A DNA stretch of 64,000 bases from a virus, in IMG/VR virus record IMGVR_UViG_3300031839_001380, positions 115,847-179,846 of that record; one strand, given 5' to 3'. The notes beneath the pieces were generated by a model. It searched no databases. It was not told the origin of the DNA and worked only from the letters and a program-made list of their open reading frames with translations. The position numbers were made by a program, and so were the translations under genes. Shown here one piece after another: positions 7,001-64,000 of the stretch (position 1 is the stretch's first letter; every line of letters starts with the position of its first letter).

Positions 7001-10000
7001 TTGTTGATTCAACAGTTGGTACATACGCGACAATTACAACTGTTGATATCGATGTACTCGATGCAAGACAGACAAATATTACTGGTTTAGCTGTTACCGA
7101 TATTGTCGGTACTGCTGCTACTATTACAACGATTGACGCCACAGAAGGCGATATTGTCAACGCTAAGATCACTGCCGGTATCGTAACCTCTCTGGTTGGC
7201 ACCTACGCTACGATCACCACGGTCGATATCGAGACCCTGGATGCAAGACAGACAAATATTACTGGATTAGCAGTCACTGATATTGTTGGTACTGCCGCAA
7301 CTATCACTACAGTTGACTTTGAAGTCGCAGACATTCTGAATGCTACCATTTCGGTTGGCATTGCAACTTCTGCATTCGTTCAAGCTGGTTTCATCACATC
7401 ACTGTATGATTCCACTGGTGTTGTTGGTCTGAACACTCAGCATATGCTGAGTACCAATCCAGATGGCACGATCACCTGGCGCGAACCTGCACAGATTGGT
7501 ATTGCCACAATCAATGCCAAGCTTGACACATGGTATGTTTCTACTAATGGTGTTGACGACGGTGACGCATCTCGTGGGCGCACTGCAGAAAGGCCATACA
7601 GAACGATTGCATACGCTCTGTCTCAAATCTCTAATATTGGTGTAAACGATGTATTAAACATCGCCGCTGGTGTTTATGAAGAAGTCTTCCCACTGACTGT
7701 TCCAGCTGGATTAACTGTTAAGGGTGCTGGACTCCGTGCTACCAAGATTTGTCCTACTGTTGCTACCAAGCAGAAGGACTGCTTCTTGATGAACGACAGA
7801 TCTGTTGTTGAGGATGTCACTATCGGTGACATGTACTTCGATACTGCTGGCAATCAGGGTTATGCGTTTAAGTTTGCTCCTGGTATCGCGATCACAAGCA
7901 GATCTCCTTATATTCAGCGCGTAACTGTATTCAACAAAGGTAGTAATACTTCTGCTAGTGATCCATATGGTTATGGTTCAGCTGATGCAAATCCTTCCTC
8001 CTACATCGCTGGTGGTGGTGCTTACCTTGATGGTTCTGAGGTAGCATCAGGATCTCTTGAGGCAGCGTTCTTGTTCAATGAAGTTACTTTCATTGTACCG
8101 AACAGCAAAGGTCTGATTATGACCAACGGTGCTCGCAGTGAGTACCTGAATTGCTTCTCCTACTTCGCTGCTGAAGCTATCAAGGGCACATCTGGTTCTC
8201 TTGGTATCAGTTCCGCTGGTGAGACCAGACTGAGACTGACTGGTATTACAACCGTTGGTGTTGGTAACACAATTACTGTCTTTGATACTGACGGAACTAC
8301 TGGTATTGCAACTGCTATTGTTTCTGGTTATGACGGAACATACCTGGATGTAACTGGAAAGCAAACTGGTTTTGAAGTTCTCAATGCCAGAACTGCTAAA
8401 GCTATTACTTTCAACGATGGTGCTCAACTAGACACTACAGTTAAGAAATTTGGCAGTGCATCGTTAGCACTTGACGGAACAAATGATTCTATCAGTGCTC
8501 CTTCTAGCGGTGATCTTGGTTTCGGCACCAATACAGACTTCACGATTGAATTCTGGGCATACGCAAATACAACTGGTCTGACCAGCGCAACTCTCTTCGA
8601 CTTAAGAGACACTGGCACTGATGCTGAGGGTATCAGCGTTGCCTTCCGTGCTGCTGGCGAAGTTGACATGCGGGTTGGTACTACAACCGCTATCACTGGC
8701 TCTGGCGCAGGCATCGCTACAGGCGTCTGGAAGCACTATGCACTCGCTAGAGAGGGTACAAACACTAGACTGTTTGTTGACGGTACTCAGAGAGGCATTA
8801 AGACCTCTGATACAACTAACTACGGTGCATCTAAAGGTCTGGTCATCGGTGCTGACTTTGATGGCGCAAGTCAAAATGTCACTGGTTGGATTGACGACTT
8901 TAGAATCGAGAGAGGAGTTGCCAAGTACAATACAAACTTCACTGCTCCGACTGCTGCACACACAGGTGATAAGGACACAGTTCTCTTACTCTCCTTTGAT
9001 GGTGCGAGTGGCGTAACAACAACCACCGACGATGTAATCCGCAACCAGGATATCCGCATCACTCAAGCTGGTGGCGGTATCGGAACTGCAACTAAGGTTA
9101 TCCTTGCTGACTACAGTCAGTTCGGTGCGGACATGCGTTCCGTTGGTTGTGCTGTTGAGTATGGTCAAAAGGGTGTTATTGCTGATGGTGATGGCGTATC
9201 TCTGAGACTGTTTGCTCTCAACTTCAATCATGTTGGTGCTGGTGGAGATTTCTCTAATGATCCTAACCTGGCAATTCAAGCTAATGAAGTTACCGAAATT
9301 AATAACGGTGATATATCATTCGTTAGTATCGACCAAAGAGGAGACTTCAGAGTTGGAGATGCATTCTTTGTTGATCAAGAAAACGGTACGGTATCGTTCT
9401 CACAACAAGTAACCAGCCTCCAAGCACTTTCATCTCTTCAGATTACTGACGGATCTAATAGCAGCACTATTACTCCTACAAGCGGTACATTTGGTAACAT
9501 CCAGATTGCTGGTAACAATATTGAATCTACCTCAGGTGATATTAATATTGATCCAGCTGGTGCTGGTTCAATTAACATCACTGGTGATGTCAATGTCCTG
9601 GGTATCCTGACTGCGACAACCATCCAGCTCGATGCATTCCAGAAGAATGATACTTCCATCGCTCTGGATGACTCAGGTGCTAACGGTACTATTCGATTCA
9701 ACACTGATAATGTTGAGGGCATGCGCCTTGACGCTAATCAGAAGTTGGGTATCGGTACTGCCGCACCTAGACAGAGACTTGATGTCCTCGACACTGCTAA
9801 GTTTGAGAGACTCGATGTAACTGGCGTATCTACATTTGCTGAGAGAGTTGACTTTAACCTTAGCATCGACGCAGTTGACGCTAAGATCACTGCTGGTGTT
9901 GTAACCTCGTTGGTCGGTACATATGCCACCATCACTACGGTTGATATTGAAACATTAGATGCTAAAGATGTCAACATCACTGGTCTTGCGGTAACAGATA

Positions 10001-14879: not shown

Positions 14880-15761
14880 ATGGCACTGTCATATTCCGAT
14901 ATTTCTAGTTTCCTATCAGAATCAAAGAAGAAGAAACCGTCAACTACAGGAGATTTTGAATCTCCTAAAGTTGATGACTCTTCTGTAAAAATTACAGAGG
15001 GAAGTTTTACTATTGGTCCTGGACATCGTGGAGCGATGAAAGGTACTAAGATTTATAATAAAGGAAAGAGCACAACTAATCCTAATGAGAAGGATGCGTT
15101 CTTAAAGAAATCTGGAGCACAACTTCCTCCTTTAGCTCAAAAGAAACCATCAACACAAATGGCTGGTTATCAACCAGAAGGTGATATGATTGGTGAAGTT
15201 GTTGGCGGCAAACCTGGAGACGGATATATTGGTCACCCCAATCTAGATATTAAAAACCCACTTGCTAAGAAACAAGTTAAGGGTCCCACTGGAAATCAAG
15301 GACTTGCTGGCAAACTTGGTGATAGAAAGATGAGGATTGATAAGATGACCAATCAAATGCTCAATCAATCTGTCGAGCCAGAAGGTAAGTTAATTGAAGA
15401 GACAGATATGAGATTCTGTCCTAAGTGTGAGAAGATGGAAGCTAGAGAAGAGTGTGCTTATGGTCCCGACTATTGGGACACATTTGCTATTAAAAATATC
15501 TCTAAGAAAGTAGAGGAAGGTGCTGCATGGACTCGCAAAGAAGGACAGAATCCTGAGGGTGGACTCAATGAGAAGGGACGAAAGTCTGCCAAAGCAGATG
15601 GACATAACTTAAAACGACCATCTAAAGTGAAGGGTAATAAGAGAAGAGCATCATTCTGTGCAAGGATGAAAGGCATGAAGAAAAAACTCACTTCTGCTGA
15701 GACAGCAAGAGATCCTGATAGCAGAATCAACAAATCACTTAGAGCTTGGGACTGTAACTAA
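14880..15761 (+). CDS. Putative internal head protein: capsid-targeting N-terminus plus DUF6321-like C-terminus
   Basis: 293 residues, very basic. The N-terminus carries S-S-F-L-S-E-S (residues 9-15), matching the F-(L/I)-x-E signal that in T4 internal proteins targets cargo into the prohead and is cut by gp21 after Glu. Around residue 179 is a Cys pair motif (CPKCEKMEAREEC). The C-terminal ~80 residues (AAWTRKEGQNPEGGLNEKG, FCARMKGMKKK, DPDSRINKSLRAWDC) match my recollection of DUF6321, a viral domain of unknown function. I infer packaging with the genome and delivery to the cell. Coupled to the next gene, which has the same N-terminal signal. Confidence 0.6.
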   Translation: MALSYSDISSFLSESKKKKPSTTGDFESPKVDDSSVKITEGSFTIGPGHRGAMKGTKIYNKGKSTTNPNEKDAFLKKSGAQLPPLAQKKPSTQMAGYQPEGDMIGEVVGGKPGDGYIGHPNLDIKNPLAKKQVKGPTGNQGLAGKLGDRKMRIDKMTNQMLNQSVEPEGKLIEETDMRFCPKCEKMEAREECAYGPDYWDTFAIKNISKKVEEGAAWTRKEGQNPEGGLNEKGRKSAKADGHNLKRPSKVKGNKRRASFCARMKGMKKKLTSAETARDPDSRINKSLRAWDCN

Positions 15762-16069
15762 TGAAAAACTTTAAAGAATTTTTGTCGGAAAGCAAAATTA
15801 CAATTACTATTGATACTGATGATATTGAGACTCCCAAAAATGAAGAGTTCGGTGCTGATGTAGTTTGGGAAGGTAAGCTCTATCGTATGGATTTATCTAC
15901 TGTTAGAGATTCTCTTCCAACAGAAAAAGAATTATCCGAACAGTTACAAAAGGAATATCCTGGAGCTATGGTCCAGAAAATATATCCAGTTTCTGAAGAA
16001 AAATCTGACATTACTGTCGTTAATAAAAAAAGATTTAACCCAGCTATGCAATCATGGGTTGAAGATTAA
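15761..16069 (+). CDS. Putative internal head protein with capsid-targeting N-terminus
   Basis: 102 residues. Begins MKNFKEFLSE then Ser-Lys, very close to the T4 IPIII capsid-targeting sequence MKTYQEFIAE, including Met-Lys, the aromatic-x-E/x-F core and Glu at position 10 where gp21 would cut. The remaining ~90 residues are acidic, with YRMDLSTVRDSLPTEKELSE and a terminal NPAMQSWVED; no known fold recognised. Start is TAATG-coupled to the DUF6321-like protein, suggesting stoichiometric co-production of two cargo proteins. Confidence 0.6.
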   Translation: MKNFKEFLSESKITITIDTDDIETPKNEEFGADVVWEGKLYRMDLSTVRDSLPTEKELSEQLQKEYPGAMVQKIYPVSEEKSDITVVNKKRFNPAMQSWVED

Positions 16070-28447: not shown

Positions 28448-29098
28448 ATGAAACTGATCACGGAAGAAATCGAACAGGTCGAACTTATCGTTGAAGAACG
28501 CAACGGTAAGAAATCTATGTTCATCGAAGGAGTATTCCTTCAGGGAGACATTCAGAACCGAAATGGTCGGATGTATCCTATGGATACTCTTCGCAGAGAA
28601 GTATGTCGTTACAACGAAAGTTTTGTCAGCAAAGGCAGAGCTCTTGGTGAACTCGGTCATCCCGAAGGACCTACTCTCAACCTGGATCGAGTATCTCATA
28701 AAATTACATCTCTCAGAGAAGAGGGAACTAATTTTATAGGTAAAGCTAAAATTCTCAATACCCCCATGGGTAAGATCGCACAAAATCTTATCGATGAAGG
28801 TGTAAAGTTGGGTGTTTCTTCCCGTGGACTTGGAACTTTAGCGGTAAATGAGAATGGTATTAAAGTCGTCTCAAACGATTTTATGCTTGCAACTGCTGCA
28901 GATATTGTAGCAGATCCATCCGCACCTGATGCATTTGTATCAGGAATTATGGAAGGAAAAGACTGGGTAATGGATGGTGGAATCGTCAGAGAAAGGCTTG
29001 TAGAGAAGACCTACAAGCAAATTAATACCTTGGTCGATCAAAAAGCACTTGAAGAAAACAAGTTGGCACTGTTCAATAATTTCCTGTCAAGTCTCTAA
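28448..29098 (+). CDS. gp21: Prohead core protease gp21
   Basis: 216 residues (T4 212). Serine protease that matures the prohead by cutting gp23, scaffold and internal proteins after the (L/I)-x-E signal. Catalytic landmarks are LGELGHPEGPTLNLDRVSH with the His (about 71) and VKLGVSSRGLGTL with the nucleophile Ser (about 122); both lie in the usual S78-type fold context. Lies between gp67 and gp22 as in T4. Its predicted signal occurs in gp23 (LSE) and in the N-termini of two or three putative cargo proteins of this window. Confidence 0.94.
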   Translation: MKLITEEIEQVELIVEERNGKKSMFIEGVFLQGDIQNRNGRMYPMDTLRREVCRYNESFVSKGRALGELGHPEGPTLNLDRVSHKITSLREEGTNFIGKAKILNTPMGKIAQNLIDEGVKLGVSSRGLGTLAVNENGIKVVSNDFMLATAADIVADPSAPDAFVSGIMEGKDWVMDGGIVRERLVEKTYKQINTLVDQKALEENKLALFNNFLSSL

Positions 29099-29149: not shown

Positions 29150-30196
29150 ATGTCCGCTAAGGAATTACAAGAAATGGAAAATCCCGTAACAAGGGGTGCG
29201 AAAGGAGCTGAGGCTATGCCTAAGCTTTCTGATCCTGGAACTGGTTTGGCTGCTGTTCAAGATCTTGGTGGGCCTACCCCCGAGAACTACAAAGCCGACG
29301 ATGATTCCGCGAAACTCGCAGAACCCAAAGTTAAAACTGTCAAAGATGTCGTAAATCGTGGCGCTAAAGCTGCTGAACCGATGCAAAGTCTTTCTGCTGG
29401 CGATACCGTCGAAGCAGAAGGCGAGCAAGAAGTTGTAGCTGAAGATGAGACCACGCAAGAGGAGGTAACTCCTTCTGTTGATATCGAAGAAGATCTTTCT
29501 GCCCTTTTTGGTGGCGAAGAACTTTCCGAAGAATTTCAATTAAAAGCTCGCACAATCTTTGAGGCTGTAGTTACTGCTAAAGTAACTGAAGTCCAAGAAG
29601 AGATGGCTGCACAATACGAAGAGCAACTTACTGAACATCTTGAGACTGTAAAGTCTGAACTTGTAGAGCGCGTTGATGCATACCTTGAGTATGTTTCAGA
29701 AGAGTGGATCTCCGAGAACAAGATCGAAGTAGAGCACGGTCTTAAGACCGAAATGACTGAATCATTCCTTTCTGGAATGAAGGGTCTATTTGAAGATCAT
29801 TATGTAACAATTGCTGACGACAAATACGATGTCCTGGAGAGTATGGTCTCCAAACTTGATGAAATGGAAGGCAGACTTAACGAACAGATCGAAGCTAACA
29901 TTTCTCTTAACAAGCGCCTTGGCGAATCTACAGCTGATGGAATTTTCCGTGAAGTAACCGAGGGTCTTGCTGTAACACAAAGAGAGAAATTAGTCGCATT
30001 GTCTGAAGGTGTTGAGTTTGAGGGTGAAGAATCTTATCGTGAGAAGCTGGTTACACTGAAGGAATCTTATTTCCCCAGTGAGCAAAAACTTTCTTCTAAC
30101 AAAGTGGAAACACTTTCTGAGGGCGTAACCTCAGAGACTGGTGTTGAGGCATCTGCTTCAATGACCCAGTACTTGAAAGCCCTTGGGATGAAGTAA
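29150..30196 (+). CDS. gp22: Prohead scaffold core protein gp22
   Basis: 348 residues (T4 269), acidic and coiled-coil. The major scaffold around which gp23 assembles, later digested by gp21. The central helix (FQLKARTIFEAVVTAKVTEV, VQEEMAAQYEEQLTEHLETV) and ISLNKRLGESTADGIFREVT are typical. The N-terminal ~110 residues carry two similar blocks (NPVTRGAKGAEAMPKLSDPG and DVVNRGAKAAEPMQSLSAGD), an internal duplication. Several L-S-E sites (for example VALSEG, ETLSEG) fit gp21 processing. Confidence 0.93.
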   Translation: MSAKELQEMENPVTRGAKGAEAMPKLSDPGTGLAAVQDLGGPTPENYKADDDSAKLAEPKVKTVKDVVNRGAKAAEPMQSLSAGDTVEAEGEQEVVAEDETTQEEVTPSVDIEEDLSALFGGEELSEEFQLKARTIFEAVVTAKVTEVQEEMAAQYEEQLTEHLETVKSELVERVDAYLEYVSEEWISENKIEVEHGLKTEMTESFLSGMKGLFEDHYVTIADDKYDVLESMVSKLDEMEGRLNEQIEANISLNKRLGESTADGIFREVTEGLAVTQREKLVALSEGVEFEGEESYREKLVTLKESYFPSEQKLSSNKVETLSEGVTSETGVEASASMTQYLKALGMK

Positions 30197-60156: not shown

Positions 60157-61491
60157 ATGGCTGAACCGTCTGAAGGATTTTTTGCTGGTTGTGCGTTATG
60201 CAACAATCAAGAAATGGATGCTGCTGTCAAAGATGAGACAAGTCTTCAAAACTTTTACAACCTCATGTATCAGAGGTATATGGGTCCCGCTGTTATTGGT
60301 GCTGGGAATGTAAAAAAAGATTTTGAGAAAGCTGTAACCTTAACCCCATCAACAAAAAAAGATAAGTTTTATTCTGATCTTATTGTAGGTATCTCTGCAG
60401 TAAAAGCAGTCAGATCTTTTCTTGCTAAAAATTCTGCAATGAAAGGTATATCTGGGAATGCAATACCCAATGCAGTATACCTGACAGGAACTCAATGGCC
60501 TCAAGAAGTTCAGCAATTTAAGTTTGCTGCTTTTGGTATGGCAGACTTTAACTCTTCTGATTTGATTCTTCAGTATGGAGCTAATTATGTTGGGGTATCT
60601 CTGAAAAAGAAACCAAAAGGAACTGCACCGGACCCGACTCTAATCAATAAAGCATTTGATACTGTATTGAATGGATCTCAATTTGCTCCTATCAAGGCAC
60701 AGTTACAGCAAGCACGACAGCAGTTTTTTGCTGGAGTAATTAGGGATGCATTAACTACTGGTCCTTTGGTTGGACTTGCTCAACTTCCTGATGGATCTAA
60801 TCCTAGAAATGCTCCACCGGAAAAACTTTGGAGTACTAGGATTGGTATCTATAAAAATGGTAAGATTCAAACAGTTCCTTTAATTAATCTAAAAGATGTA
60901 TCTGCTATTGGTGATCCAGCTCTTTTGAATACTAGAGAGGTTGATACCAAAACAACTAATGCGATGCGTGATTATGTAAACATGAGGCTTGGCAAAGTTG
61001 GAAATCAACCCAACACATTATATAAACAATTCCTAAGTATTATTAAAAGAAATCAGCAGTTGTTTGCTGATACCCTAATCAATCTTATTCTTAAGAAACA
61101 ATTGATGGATGAGATGAGTGAGTATACTAGAAATAACTTTGAATTTATCTTGACCACTGGGGTAGGGCAGGTTACAATATCTAAGTCTAATGGTATGAAT
61201 ATTCAGGAAGGTAGTGGTACTTGTATTGGTATTGATAGCGTTGCACTTGCTCTTGCTTATCTTAGAAGACAACCTAAGACTATTGATATAGATACTGCAA
61301 AAACAGAGTCCTCAAATGCGGCTAAGTTATTTTTCAAAGTTAGGGCAGGTACACTAGATCTCTTAGAACTTGAGTTAAGATATAAAGGTGACTTTAAATC
61401 TCAACCTCAGTTCCAAGCATTTCTTTCACCCCAATTTAAATCCTTACTTAAGGGTGACTTTGGAAACGCACGAAACATTATTTTTGGTTAA
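60157..61491 (+). CDS. Unknown protein with nuclease-like D-x12-S-L-K motif
   Basis: 444 residues. ADFNSSDLILQYGANYVGVS then LKKKPKG: an Asp135 followed by a strand ending in S-L-K150 resembles the PD-(D/E)xK variant with Ser replacing the acidic residue, seen in some phage and restriction nucleases. N-terminal CALCNNQEMDAAV and helical VKDETSLQNFYNLMYQRYMG precede it. TTGVGQVTISKSNGMNI and KLFFKVRAGTLDLLELELRY follow. No second acidic cluster is obvious. Confidence 0.4.
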   Translation: MAEPSEGFFAGCALCNNQEMDAAVKDETSLQNFYNLMYQRYMGPAVIGAGNVKKDFEKAVTLTPSTKKDKFYSDLIVGISAVKAVRSFLAKNSAMKGISGNAIPNAVYLTGTQWPQEVQQFKFAAFGMADFNSSDLILQYGANYVGVSLKKKPKGTAPDPTLINKAFDTVLNGSQFAPIKAQLQQARQQFFAGVIRDALTTGPLVGLAQLPDGSNPRNAPPEKLWSTRIGIYKNGKIQTVPLINLKDVSAIGDPALLNTREVDTKTTNAMRDYVNMRLGKVGNQPNTLYKQFLSIIKRNQQLFADTLINLILKKQLMDEMSEYTRNNFEFILTTGVGQVTISKSNGMNIQEGSGTCIGIDSVALALAYLRRQPKTIDIDTAKTESSNAAKLFFKVRAGTLDLLELELRYKGDFKSQPQFQAFLSPQFKSLLKGDFGNARNIIFG

Positions 61492-62097
61492 ATGTACACT
61501 GATTTATTTCCAACTCGAATATTCAAATACAATTTACAGGCACCTGATCTAAGACAAAATATGTTGGATAGGTATGTATCTTGGAAAGATCATTCAATAA
61601 ATGGAACTCCAGAAGGATGGAGTTGTGATGTTAGAACAGAATTTCAAGGAGCTTTCCCTCAAGAGATTAAGCAGCATTATGATGATGCCCTAAGAGAATG
61701 GAGGGATGAATTTGGACTATTTGATCGTCCATATATTGATGAGATTTGGATGAACGCTTATGAGAAATCTCAATTTCAAGAGTCTCATTCTCATCTACCT
61801 GGATTTTTTTCTGGGATTCATTATCTAGTATTTGATCCAGAAGATCATGTAGCTACTACATTCCAAAATCCACAGGACTCTATACATTCTTTTATGTTTG
61901 ATGATGAGTTTCTGGATGGAAATATTAATCAGCACCTATGTGAGAATCATACCCCTAAGGTTGAGGAGGGTGATATTATTTTATTCCCATCTCATTTGAG
62001 ACATTTTGTTAAAAAGAATAACAGTAAAAAGCTTCGTATAACTATATCCTTTAACATAAATAGAATTGCGGAGTCTACTCGACGGGTTTTTTCGTAG
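61492..62097 (+). CDS. 2OG-Fe(II) oxygenase-like protein (PF13759 type)
   Basis: 201 residues. MYTDLFPTRIFKYNLQAPDL opening; QFQESHSHLPGFFSGIHYLV contains the H-x-H iron pair and S-G-x-x-Y-L strand; GDIILFPSHLRHFVKKNNSK the distal His, and KLRITISFNI the Arg. The best match among the window's oxygenases to the family consensus. Two bases separate it from the next gene. Confidence 0.75.
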   Translation: MYTDLFPTRIFKYNLQAPDLRQNMLDRYVSWKDHSINGTPEGWSCDVRTEFQGAFPQEIKQHYDDALREWRDEFGLFDRPYIDEIWMNAYEKSQFQESHSHLPGFFSGIHYLVFDPEDHVATTFQNPQDSIHSFMFDDEFLDGNINQHLCENHTPKVEEGDIILFPSHLRHFVKKNNSKKLRITISFNINRIAESTRRVFS

Positions 62098-62099
62098 TA

Positions 62100-63296
62100 A
62101 TGAAGAATTTCTTTCAATTCTTAAATGAGGCGCAGACAAACGCTGCAAAGCAAGCAAAGAAGCTTGGTTTGAAGGGTGATGGCCATGGGTCATGGGTTGA
62201 TCCAGCTGGAAAAATTGTTGGTAGAACCATAGAAGGTGAGTTGGTTTTTTCTAGTGGTAGAAAACCATCACAAGAAACTGATCCAACAAAACCTGGACGG
62301 GCAGCAAGAGCTTTACCTCCAGAAAATCCTCCTCCTTCAGCACCACAAAGTGGTGGAGTTGGTGAACCAGAAGAGCAGGAAGAGGTAGAAAAGACTCGCG
62401 GTACTGTTACTATTGGGTTTGGTAGATTTAATCCCCCTACAGCAGGTCACGAAAAATTACTTGATACTATTAAAGATACTGCAGAGGGTGGGTCCTATAT
62501 GATATACCCATCCCACTCAGTAGATCCACAGAAAAATCCTCTTGATTCTGAGACTAAAGTTCTCTTTATGAAGAAGATGTTTCCTGCACATGCGAATGCG
62601 ATCATATATGATCCTGGCATTCGTACCATACTAGACGCACTGAAGCAAGCCGATGTCGAAGGATATAGTAGCGTCAACATCGTGGTTGGTGCTGACAGAC
62701 AAAAAGAGTTTGAGGGGCTCGCGAACAAATACAACGGGCAACTCTATAATTTTGATGCGATTAATGTCATCTCTGCAGGAGAACGGGATCCCGATGCTGA
62801 AGGGGTTGAGGGTATGTCTGCTTCCAAATTACGAGCCTTAGCTGCTGATGGTGACTTTGAGTCTTTCAAGAAAGGATTACCCAAGTCTGCTAAAGGAATG
62901 GTTGCAAGAGAACTATTCAATACAGTACAGAGATCTATGGGTGCTGCAGCTGTAACAGAGGGCGTAGAGATGTGGCAAATTGCTCCTAAGTTTGATGAAA
63001 AAACTTTGAGAGAGCATTACATTATTGGCAATATGTTTGATCTGGGATCTCTTGTAGAATCTTTAAATACCGGACTTGTTGGTAGGATTATTAGACGCGG
63101 TGCAAATCATGTTATTGCAGTTACATCTGAGGGTATTATGTTCAAATCTTGGATTAGAGATTTGACTGAATATGTTTCTAGAATTCCTTCTGGAGTTCCT
63201 GCAAATAAGAGAGAAGTTGGAACAGATTCTTATCGAGAGTATGTACAGAGACTTACTCCATTGGAAAAAGTTAAGTCCTTTATAAATAAAAGATAG
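62100..63296 (+). CDS. Nucleotidyltransferase (NadM/cytidylyltransferase-like) with capsid-targeting N-terminus
   Basis: 398 residues. Residues 1-10 MKNFFQFLNE match the T4 capsid-targeting signal (MKTYQEFIAE) with a gp21 site after Glu10. Residues ~15-55 form a small module (KKLGLKGDGHGSWVDPAG) I have seen in other cyanophage proteins. A Pro-rich linker leads to the enzyme: FGRFNPPTAGHEKL (108-120, the H-x-G-H-type nucleotide motif) and GMSASKLRAL (238-247, the terminal S/T-x-x-R motif). This fold transfers AMP/CMP, for example NMN adenylyltransferase. The C-terminal ~100 residues are another module. Confidence 0.7.
   Translation: MKNFFQFLNEAQTNAAKQAKKLGLKGDGHGSWVDPAGKIVGRTIEGELVFSSGRKPSQETDPTKPGRAARALPPENPPPSAPQSGGVGEPEEQEEVEKTRGTVTIGFGRFNPPTAGHEKLLDTIKDTAEGGSYMIYPSHSVDPQKNPLDSETKVLFMKKMFPAHANAIIYDPGIRTILDALKQADVEGYSSVNIVVGADRQKEFEGLANKYNGQLYNFDAINVISAGERDPDAEGVEGMSASKLRALAADGDFESFKKGLPKSAKGMVARELFNTVQRSMGAAAVTEGVEMWQIAPKFDEKTLREHYIIGNMFDLGSLVESLNTGLVGRIIRRGANHVIAVTSEGIMFKSWIRDLTEYVSRIPSGVPANKREVGTDSYREYVQRLTPLEKVKSFINKR
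63281..63288 (+). promoter_or_regulatory. Consensus late promoter TATAAATA
   Basis: TATAAATA inside the last codons of the nucleotidyltransferase gene, 33-40 bases before the ATG at 63321. Identical to the T4 late consensus. A CTGA-GCTT-TCAG mini-hairpin (63304-63315) follows. Confidence 0.6.
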
Positions 63297-63320: not shown

Positions 63321-64000
63321 ATGAAAAATTTTATTGAAGATACAGCCGATCAGATCATGCTTAATAGCATGGCAAATGTTTTTATGGAAAAACTTGATCC
63401 TGTAGGTATGGAAGATGATGATATTGACAATGATGGTAAGAAGAATACTAAGTCTGATTCTTATTTAAGAAACCGTCGTAAGTCTGTCGGTGCTGCTATT
63501 GCTGCTGATAAGGCACAGAGAGTAAAGAAAGAGCAGGTTGAATTATCTCTCCGTGAGAGAGTAGCGGAATTAACCGAAAAAAAGCTTTATAAGTCTGAGA
63601 AAGCTACGACCTCAGACGAAAAAGAAGTAGAAATTTCAGAGAAGTCTGTAAAAAATAAAGTAACTATTAATCCTGATATTCAAGAAGAGAAGAAAGGACT
63701 CTGGGCAAACATCCATGCTAAGCGTAAGCGTGGCGAAAAGCCTGCTAAGAAGGGTGATAAGGATTATCCTAAGACATTGAATGTTGAGGAAACCGAAGAT
63801 TCTTTGAGAGACCGTCGCATGGAGCGCGGTGGAGTTGATGGCAACAACCGTTACAATAAGGCACCAGGTAAACCTAATACCTTTGGTAAGAAGAAGCGTT
63901 CTTCTGATGGACCTTCTGCCATGGATGTTGTGAAAGCAAAGATCCGTGCTAAGTATGGCGATAAAGCAATCATTGATACTAAGAAGAAAAAAGAAAAAGA
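63321..64000 (+). CDS. Lys-rich protein, truncated by right window edge
   Basis: 226 residues visible, no stop. Begins MKNFIEDTADQIMLNSMANV; it shares Met-Lys-Asn-Phe with the capsid-targeted proteins but lacks the F-L-x-E core. Body is very charged with DDDIDNDGKKNTKSDSYLRN and KKGLWANIHAKRKRGEKPAK, a motif I recall from cyanophage structural or internal proteins. Preceded by a consensus late promoter, so late expression and a head-interior role are plausible. Confidence 0.5.
   Translation, partial: MKNFIEDTADQIMLNSMANVFMEKLDPVGMEDDDIDNDGKKNTKSDSYLRNRRKSVGAAIAADKAQRVKKEQVELSLRERVAELTEKKLYKSEKATTSDEKEVEISEKSVKNKVTINPDIQEEKKGLWANIHAKRKRGEKPAKKGDKDYPKTLNVEETEDSLRDRRMERGGVDGNNRYNKAPGKPNTFGKKKRSSDGPSAMDVVKAKIRAKYGDKAIIDTKKKKEK

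Follow-up and report, generated by a model that had tools for sequence, protein, structure and literature searches.

The window analysed here, a stretch of 64,000 bp, covers positions 115847–179846 of a 179,846-bp virus record, a contig of a T4-like marine cyanophage. T4-like genes in the window encode the tail sheath, tail tube, portal, a gp21-like protease, a gp22-like scaffold, and a gp23-like capsid protein. Positions 62100–63296 (+) hold an intact open reading frame (ORF) of 398 codons, and the parts of the encoded 398-aa protein are as follows (here and below, slashes mark putative cleavage sites).

62100–62129 (+): capsid-targeting sequence (CTS) MKNFFQFLNE, residues 1–10, with the T4 IPIII determinants and a predicted prohead-protease cut after Glu10
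62133–62258 (+): GDGHG module, residues about 12–53, a short helix plus beta segments, common to other cyanophage virion proteins
62259–62399 (+): Pro/Glu-rich linker, residues 54–100 (pLDDT about 30 over 53–95; pN/pS 0.44)
62400–62957 (+): predicted adenylyltransferase-type nucleotidyltransferase domain, residues 101–286 (AlphaFold2, Foldseek, PF01467, phrog_395)
62421–62450 (+): motif 1, GRFNPPTAGH, of the (T/H)xGH type, residues 108–117 (homolog alignment)
62811–62834 (+): motif 2, GMSASKLR, of the SxSxxR type, residues 238–245 (ISGTKMR in the S-CAM1/Syn1 relatives)
62952–62963 (+): VTE/G junction between enzyme and C-terminal domain, residues 285–288, speculatively a weak second prohead-protease site
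62985–63251 (+): C-terminal domain, residues about 296–384, built of five strands and encoded by its own gene in the split clade S-CAM1, Syn1, S-PM2

The AlphaFold2 model has a mean pLDDT of 66.8 over the whole protein, with low-confidence N-terminal residues; the enzyme-domain block is mostly at 80–91 over residues 101–280, with lower values at 141–150 and 231–240. An earlier sequence-only reading had placed the nucleotidyltransferase domain at residues 108–247, and these limits are corrected here to about 101–286, with an extra module (about 12–53) and a separate C-terminal domain (about 296–384). At the enzyme/C-terminal junction, 10/32 homologs carry the pattern [LI]xE[AGS] (IKEG, IQEG, LKEG), and the window protein has V in this pattern; we offer VTE/G as a speculative lead to a second cleavage site.

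The protein matches phrog_395, the profile of the cyanophage cytidyltransferase, with an E-value of 8e-98 over residues 94–397 (enzyme plus C-terminal domain). This family comprises 558 phage records, mainly from Synechococcus and Prochlorococcus phages, and corresponds to the cyanophage core "cytidyltransferase" T4-GC190 as presented by Sullivan et al. 2010 (PMC3037559); in the passages of papers that treat it, names vary between cytidyltransferase and NMNAT. S-SM1_190, S-SCSM1_91, S-CREM2_154, and S-SZBM1_140 form one gene family with the window ORF, the best cyanophage relatives share about 40–55% identity with the window protein, and in several of these four phages the gene lies near mazG. 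Standalone enzymes of ~180 aa, with neither the tag nor the C-terminal domain, occur in jumbo phages (PBECO4, Callisto). They also occur in a cyanophage clade termed split (Syn1, S-CAM1, P-HM2), in which a gene for the C-terminal domain comes after the enzyme gene. Cellular relatives amounted to just two matches on bacterial MAG contigs, possibly phage sequence.

Downstream of the gene, one ORF continues past the window end.

63321–63998 (+): next ORF, with a DNDGKKNTKSDxYLxNRRK stretch in common with S-SCSM1_92 (labelled a virion protein)

The upstream ORF at 60157–61491 (+) encodes 444 aa (phrog_3060), and its GVSLKKK stretch recalls nuclease-like folds. Despite its equal length, it was not called an ortholog of the virion protein S-SCSM1_90, because a sequence match is absent. 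In S-SZBM1 (_141), S-SM1 (_189), and Syn9 (gp183), the gene immediately preceding that of the adenylyltransferase codes for a ligase-like protein with a K(W/Y)DGAP motif; no such gene was seen beside the adenylyltransferase gene in the window.

The nucleotidyltransferase fold with both motifs that had been proposed from the letters alone is upheld: the fold is predicted by the model, GRFNPPTAGH and GMSASKLR lie at the positions given above, and the catalytic residues are invariant. Across 32 aligned homologs, the invariant positions are G108, R109, F110, N111, P112, P113, G116, H117, D142, and K145, together with N146, P147, G197, D199, R200, S240, A241, S242, and R245. T114 is replaced by His in 3/32 homologs and also in S-SZBM1 and S-CREM2; TxGH in place of HxGH is a PPAT-style variant. 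Foldseek searches of the PDB with the model returned PPAT, NadD, and NadM first (E 4e-6 to 1e-4; TM-score by target about 0.5–0.7 for single-domain enzymes), PPAT being the best match by E-value, and the best 50 matches listed were all ATP enzymes of the PPAT, NadD, or NadM type. The name cytidylyltransferase in the CTP-using sense was rejected, since no CTP transferase appears among those best 50 matches listed. On the predicted model, fold and motifs speak more for adenylyltransferases that use ATP (NadM/NadR/NadD or PPAT) than for CTP transferases.

The commonest named NCBIfam matches among the 32 members were NadD (31) and NadR (29), with CoaD at 12, and NMNAT models were also the commonest named matches for distant members, with scores far under the cut-offs. 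For the window protein itself, PF01467 fell just under its cut-off (E 0.0018), TIGR00482 gave 12.8 bits against a cut-off of 112.45 with the other named NMNAT models not listed, and every named-family match stayed below its curated cut-off, so that profile scores do not place it in an NMNAT family. By motif it does resemble NMNATs, with TAGH and SASKLR (SGTKMR in relatives) set in a predicted adenylyltransferase fold. A profile search of the PDB produced best matches at E 0.17–0.9, of which only M. jannaschii NMNAT 1f9a and UPF0348 3gmi (a similar motif-2 stretch, E 0.29, weak) are sensible, neither being firm. A single-sequence PDB search yielded only an alanyl-tRNA synthetase match to the C-terminal domain (E 0.14), which we took as chance. 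The earlier description of an NMN-adenylyltransferase-like enzyme stands as far as fold, motifs, and best named sequence matches go, and is tempered by scores far under cut-off and by PPAT as an equal fold match. Tentatively, and at a little less than an even chance, we take the likeliest single reaction to be one in which NMN or NaMN is adenylylated; a different acceptor, also a small phosphorylated molecule, is possible. In a survey of phages, those bearing NadM always had NadV (PMC9503650). Members of the NadV, NadE, and Nudix families were not found in this phage's own record, and a phage NAD salvage pathway is therefore unsupported.

In T4 IPIII, head targeting needs no more than the first ten residues, of which 4 and 7 are important for targeting and 8 and 10 for processing (PMC9026906). 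With F at 4 and 7, L at 8, and E at 10, followed by A, the window protein matches 4/4 of these tested positions, and both the targeting and the processing residues of a CTS are present in MKNFFQFLNE. The likeness to IPIII includes the length of ten residues, the MK start, the aromatic residue at position 4, the F, L/I, and E at positions 7, 8, and 10, and the small residue next to the last of these, as well as the setting, with the presumed processing and docking partners both encoded in the window.

28448–29098 (+): gp21-like prohead protease (phrog_207, E 4.5e-82), the predicted processing enzyme acting at L-N-E/A
29150–30196 (+): gp22-like head scaffolding protein (phrog_237, E 2.6e-106), the predicted docking partner of the CTS

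Unlike IPIII, which is a small basic protein, the cargo here is an enzyme, and its cleavage is predicted. Among 79 full-length IMG/VR homologs, M1 and K2 are found in 79, F4 in 78, F7, L/I8, and E10 in 77 each, and A/S11 in 76. The pN/pS ratio of the tag is 0.11, lower than that of the enzyme (0.18) and of the linker (0.44), indicating purifying selection on the tag codons. A degenerate DNA pattern of the tag occurs at two places in the 179.8-kb record, and the reversed control at none. The tag is not a chance match, because it is conserved in 77/79 homologs, has a low pN/pS, and gave an empty reversed-pattern control. Another ORF of the window also bears a CTS.

15761–16069 (+): second CTS-bearing ORF, MKNFKEFLSES, 102 aa, among structural genes (phrog_1742, next to a virion structural gene)

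Its tagged relatives in S-SCSM1 (_30) and S-SZBM1 (_191) are on neither phage's virion list. The 293-aa ORF at 14880–15761 (+), which starts MALSYSDISSFLSES, has a longer CTS-like start with an LSE/S site at residue 14.

Orthologs of the enzyme have been detected in virions by mass spectrometry in four phages, according to the published virion lists: GC190 in S-SM1 (PMC3037559), S-SZBM1_140 (PMC9146016; 2 unique peptides), S-SCSM1_91 (PMC9602691; also labelled a virion protein in its sequence record), and ORF154 in S-CREM2 (PMC10665884; 3 unique peptides). All four translated starts are CTS-like: MKKFSAFLNE/A in S-SM1, MKSFLQFLKE/A in S-SCSM1, MKNFSSFLTE/A in S-CREM2, and MRFRQFIIE/A in S-SZBM1. 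The Syn9 copy also bears the tag. GC190 of S-PM2 is among the proteins that Sullivan et al. list as not detected in S-PM2 virions (PMC3037559), and the S-PM2 enzyme is without the tag; as annotated, the sequence in front of it looks like the C-terminal portion of GC71, the ligase-like protein encoded upstream. At S-PM2 7026–8805, the GC71 gene is apparently truncated, with its missing C-terminal part joined before the adenylyltransferase (annotated GTG start), possibly through a frameshift or a real fusion. The original proposal that MKNFFQFLNE is a capsid signal gains from each of these lines: agreement with the tested IPIII positions, conservation, presence in four virion-detected orthologs, and absence from the undetected S-PM2 protein. 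As judged from sequence, the tag encoded in 62100–63296 is real and of the kind found on T4 internal proteins, and the enzyme that bears it is a known virion enzyme. The virion location that the same proposal implied is backed for the four orthologs by these published lists, which do not cover the present, uncultured phage, and the authors of PMC9602691 and PMC10665884 note that virion matches may be carry-over. The idea of delivery at infection is not new: entry of a virion NMNAT/cytidyltransferase into the host has been put forward as speculation in passages of both papers.

The 156 annotated proteins of S-CREM2 were compared with the published virion list (50 virion ORFs, 106 others). The pattern MKx[FYLW]xx[FY][LIM]xE occurs in 4/50 virion ORFs and 0/106 others (one-sided Fisher p 0.010), namely in ORFs 6 (SAM hydrolase), 13 (78 aa), 14 (kinase), and 154, and a slightly wider CTS pattern adds ORF136 (Fisher p 0.003); because the pattern was shaped after the data were seen, these p values are only indicative. 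No enrichment among the virion ORFs on that list was seen with a looser pattern for cleavage, M...[LI]xE[AGS] (3/50 vs 3/106). The CTS-like N-terminus of ORF14 has a GTG start, and in ORF12 a CTS-like FASFMAEA lies internally, at about residues 19–26, upstream of a GDGHG module. An HMM of residues 14–53 of the window protein, used to search for this module, matched ORF12 (annotated Cas9/Csn1, virion; E 1.8e-17), the virion kinase ORF14 (E 8.6e-15, two copies), and S-CRM01 128c (E 3e-18). Its occurrence in ORF12, ORF14, and the adenylyltransferase means that the module is common to unrelated cyanophage virion enzymes, and these profile matches indicate that, placed behind the tag, it is a reusable part of such enzymes. 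A further S-CREM2 virion protein, gp156 (phrog_36119), contains GGNANYNYTPYSDIDLHLVV, resembling a polymerase-beta-type nucleotidyltransferase motif.

Late-promoter-like motifs precede the gene and its downstream neighbour. The late promoter of T4, TATAAATA, has ATAAATA as its core.

62056–62062 (+): ATAAATA, T4-type late-promoter-like, ending 37 bp before the ATG of 62100–63296
63282–63288 (+): ATAAATA, its end 32 bp ahead of the next gene

All 14 ATAAATA copies in the window are on the + strand (14/14), 7 of them precede a start codon by 15–60 bp (binomial p 2e-6), and several lie ahead of portal, scaffold, and other structural genes. The total count in the window is by itself not above chance; the motif was judged by strand bias and distance to start codons, as its reversed form is identical to itself and gives no valid control. 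The motif lies ≤80 bp upstream in 47/73 homologous loci. S-SCSM1_91 also has it upstream, as does S-CREM2_154 in the form TATAAATA; S-SM1_190 and S-SZBM1_140 lack it there.

We favour, as the probable explanation, that the gene encodes a head-internal, CTS-packaged, ejected ATP-using adenylyltransferase of the NMNAT/PPAT branch in a T4-like cyanophage. Late in infection, the first ten residues would dock the protein to a gp22-type prohead core, the gp21-like protease would cut after Glu10, and about 388 residues would stay in the DNA-filled head, the virion presence of the four relatives being shown by mass spectrometry. Since the enzyme starts with a T4-like head-loading tag, it is probably carried into the host cell together with the phage genome, and ejection would proceed as for the T4 internal proteins and Alt, so that the enzyme could act before phage transcription. 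Its working part, with a predicted fold and invariant catalytic residues, would be the ATP-using adenylyltransferase, and adenylylation of NMN/NaMN, the tentatively chosen reaction, would top up NAD(H). Relatives of the split clade and of jumbo phages, whose sequences lack the tag, appear to count against packaging as the whole account; they suggest that the enzyme also works outside the head. T4 Alt is likewise a head-packaged enzyme with an N-terminal propeptide, and it is injected along with the DNA. A further cut, at LTE-619, removes a piece from the C-terminus of Alt (PMC5694885), which parallels the possible second site of the window protein. Unlike it, Alt is an ADP-ribosyltransferase of unrelated fold with a shorter propeptide.

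The delivery route would be the same if the packaged adenylyltransferase used another substrate than NMN/NaMN, either PPAT-like (CoA pathway) or some other small-molecule, RNA, or protein acceptor. The top PPAT fold match, the TxGH rather than HxGH of most members, the other NAD-pathway genes not found in the phage record, and the weak motif-2 likeness to 3gmi all speak for such a substrate, but NMNAT models outnumber CoaD in the NCBIfam matches, and likeness to NadM is seen in GRF(N/Q)P, in the KNPL stretch, and in SxS/TxxR; we rate it as rather unlikely. Modification of host proteins by a delivered AMPylator, which the sequence-only reading had raised, found no specific support. The delivery route is plausible and T4 Alt is a precedent for head-delivered modification, but the fold is that of a small-molecule HIGH-type nucleotidyltransferase, not of a Fic, SelO, or Pol-beta-type adenylylator, and a substrate-peptide feature was not found in the protein; we regard this role as highly improbable.

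The protein might instead be an ordinary cytoplasmic enzyme of infected cells, with carry-over behind its virion detection and an incidental N-terminal match. The published caveats, the low peptide counts in S-CREM2 and S-SZBM1, and the tag-less relatives are compatible with this, but the tag is kept at exactly the T4-tested positions with a pN/pS of 0.11, there are four independent virion detections in the published lists, the tag is confined to virion ORFs on the S-CREM2 list, and a late-promoter motif lies upstream, so we judge carry-over improbable. Marginally less probable still is a role as a structural or core protein, with the enzyme domain serving assembly only as a fold. Three extra modules flank the enzyme, DNA-filled heads contain many internal proteins, and neighbours of the S-SCSM1 gene include virion-labelled proteins; against this, active-site residues are invariant in the tagged family, and both motifs remain recognisable in the jumbo-phage and split forms without the extra modules.

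With the ejected adenylyltransferase as the preferred reading, a wider one comes close to an even chance: cyanophages may use modular head delivery, in which an IP-like CTS, often with the ~40-residue GDGHG module, is placed on unrelated enzymes that are injected together before phage genes are read. The cargo would be the adenylyltransferase, a protein kinase, and a Cas9-annotated nuclease, with the CTS alone on the SAM hydrolase, and the target would be the host and its defences. Compared with NadM/NadR/NadD and PPAT (CoaD), the window protein shares the predicted fold and the (T/H)xGH and SxS/TxxR motifs, but scores under curated cut-offs, has neither a Nudix nor a kinase domain, and is flanked by phage modules. 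A capsid-targeting sequence is not mentioned in the passages of papers that deal with the T4-GC190 relatives, and in the literature searched, "cyanophage" and "capsid targeting" occurred together only in a T4 review. Three things seem to be new, being undescribed within that literature: the connection to a CTS, the confinement of this tag to virion proteins in S-CREM2, and the common GDGHG module.

In several cyanophage proteomes, metabolic enzymes are listed for virions and the question of contaminants is left open; a conserved tag offers a mechanism for their presence. It also provides a rule by which sequence would predict what is packaged into the heads of these very abundant marine phages. 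If the reading is true, a NAD- or CoA-related enzyme would be in the host before phage transcription, which would be relevant to NAD-based antiphage defence.
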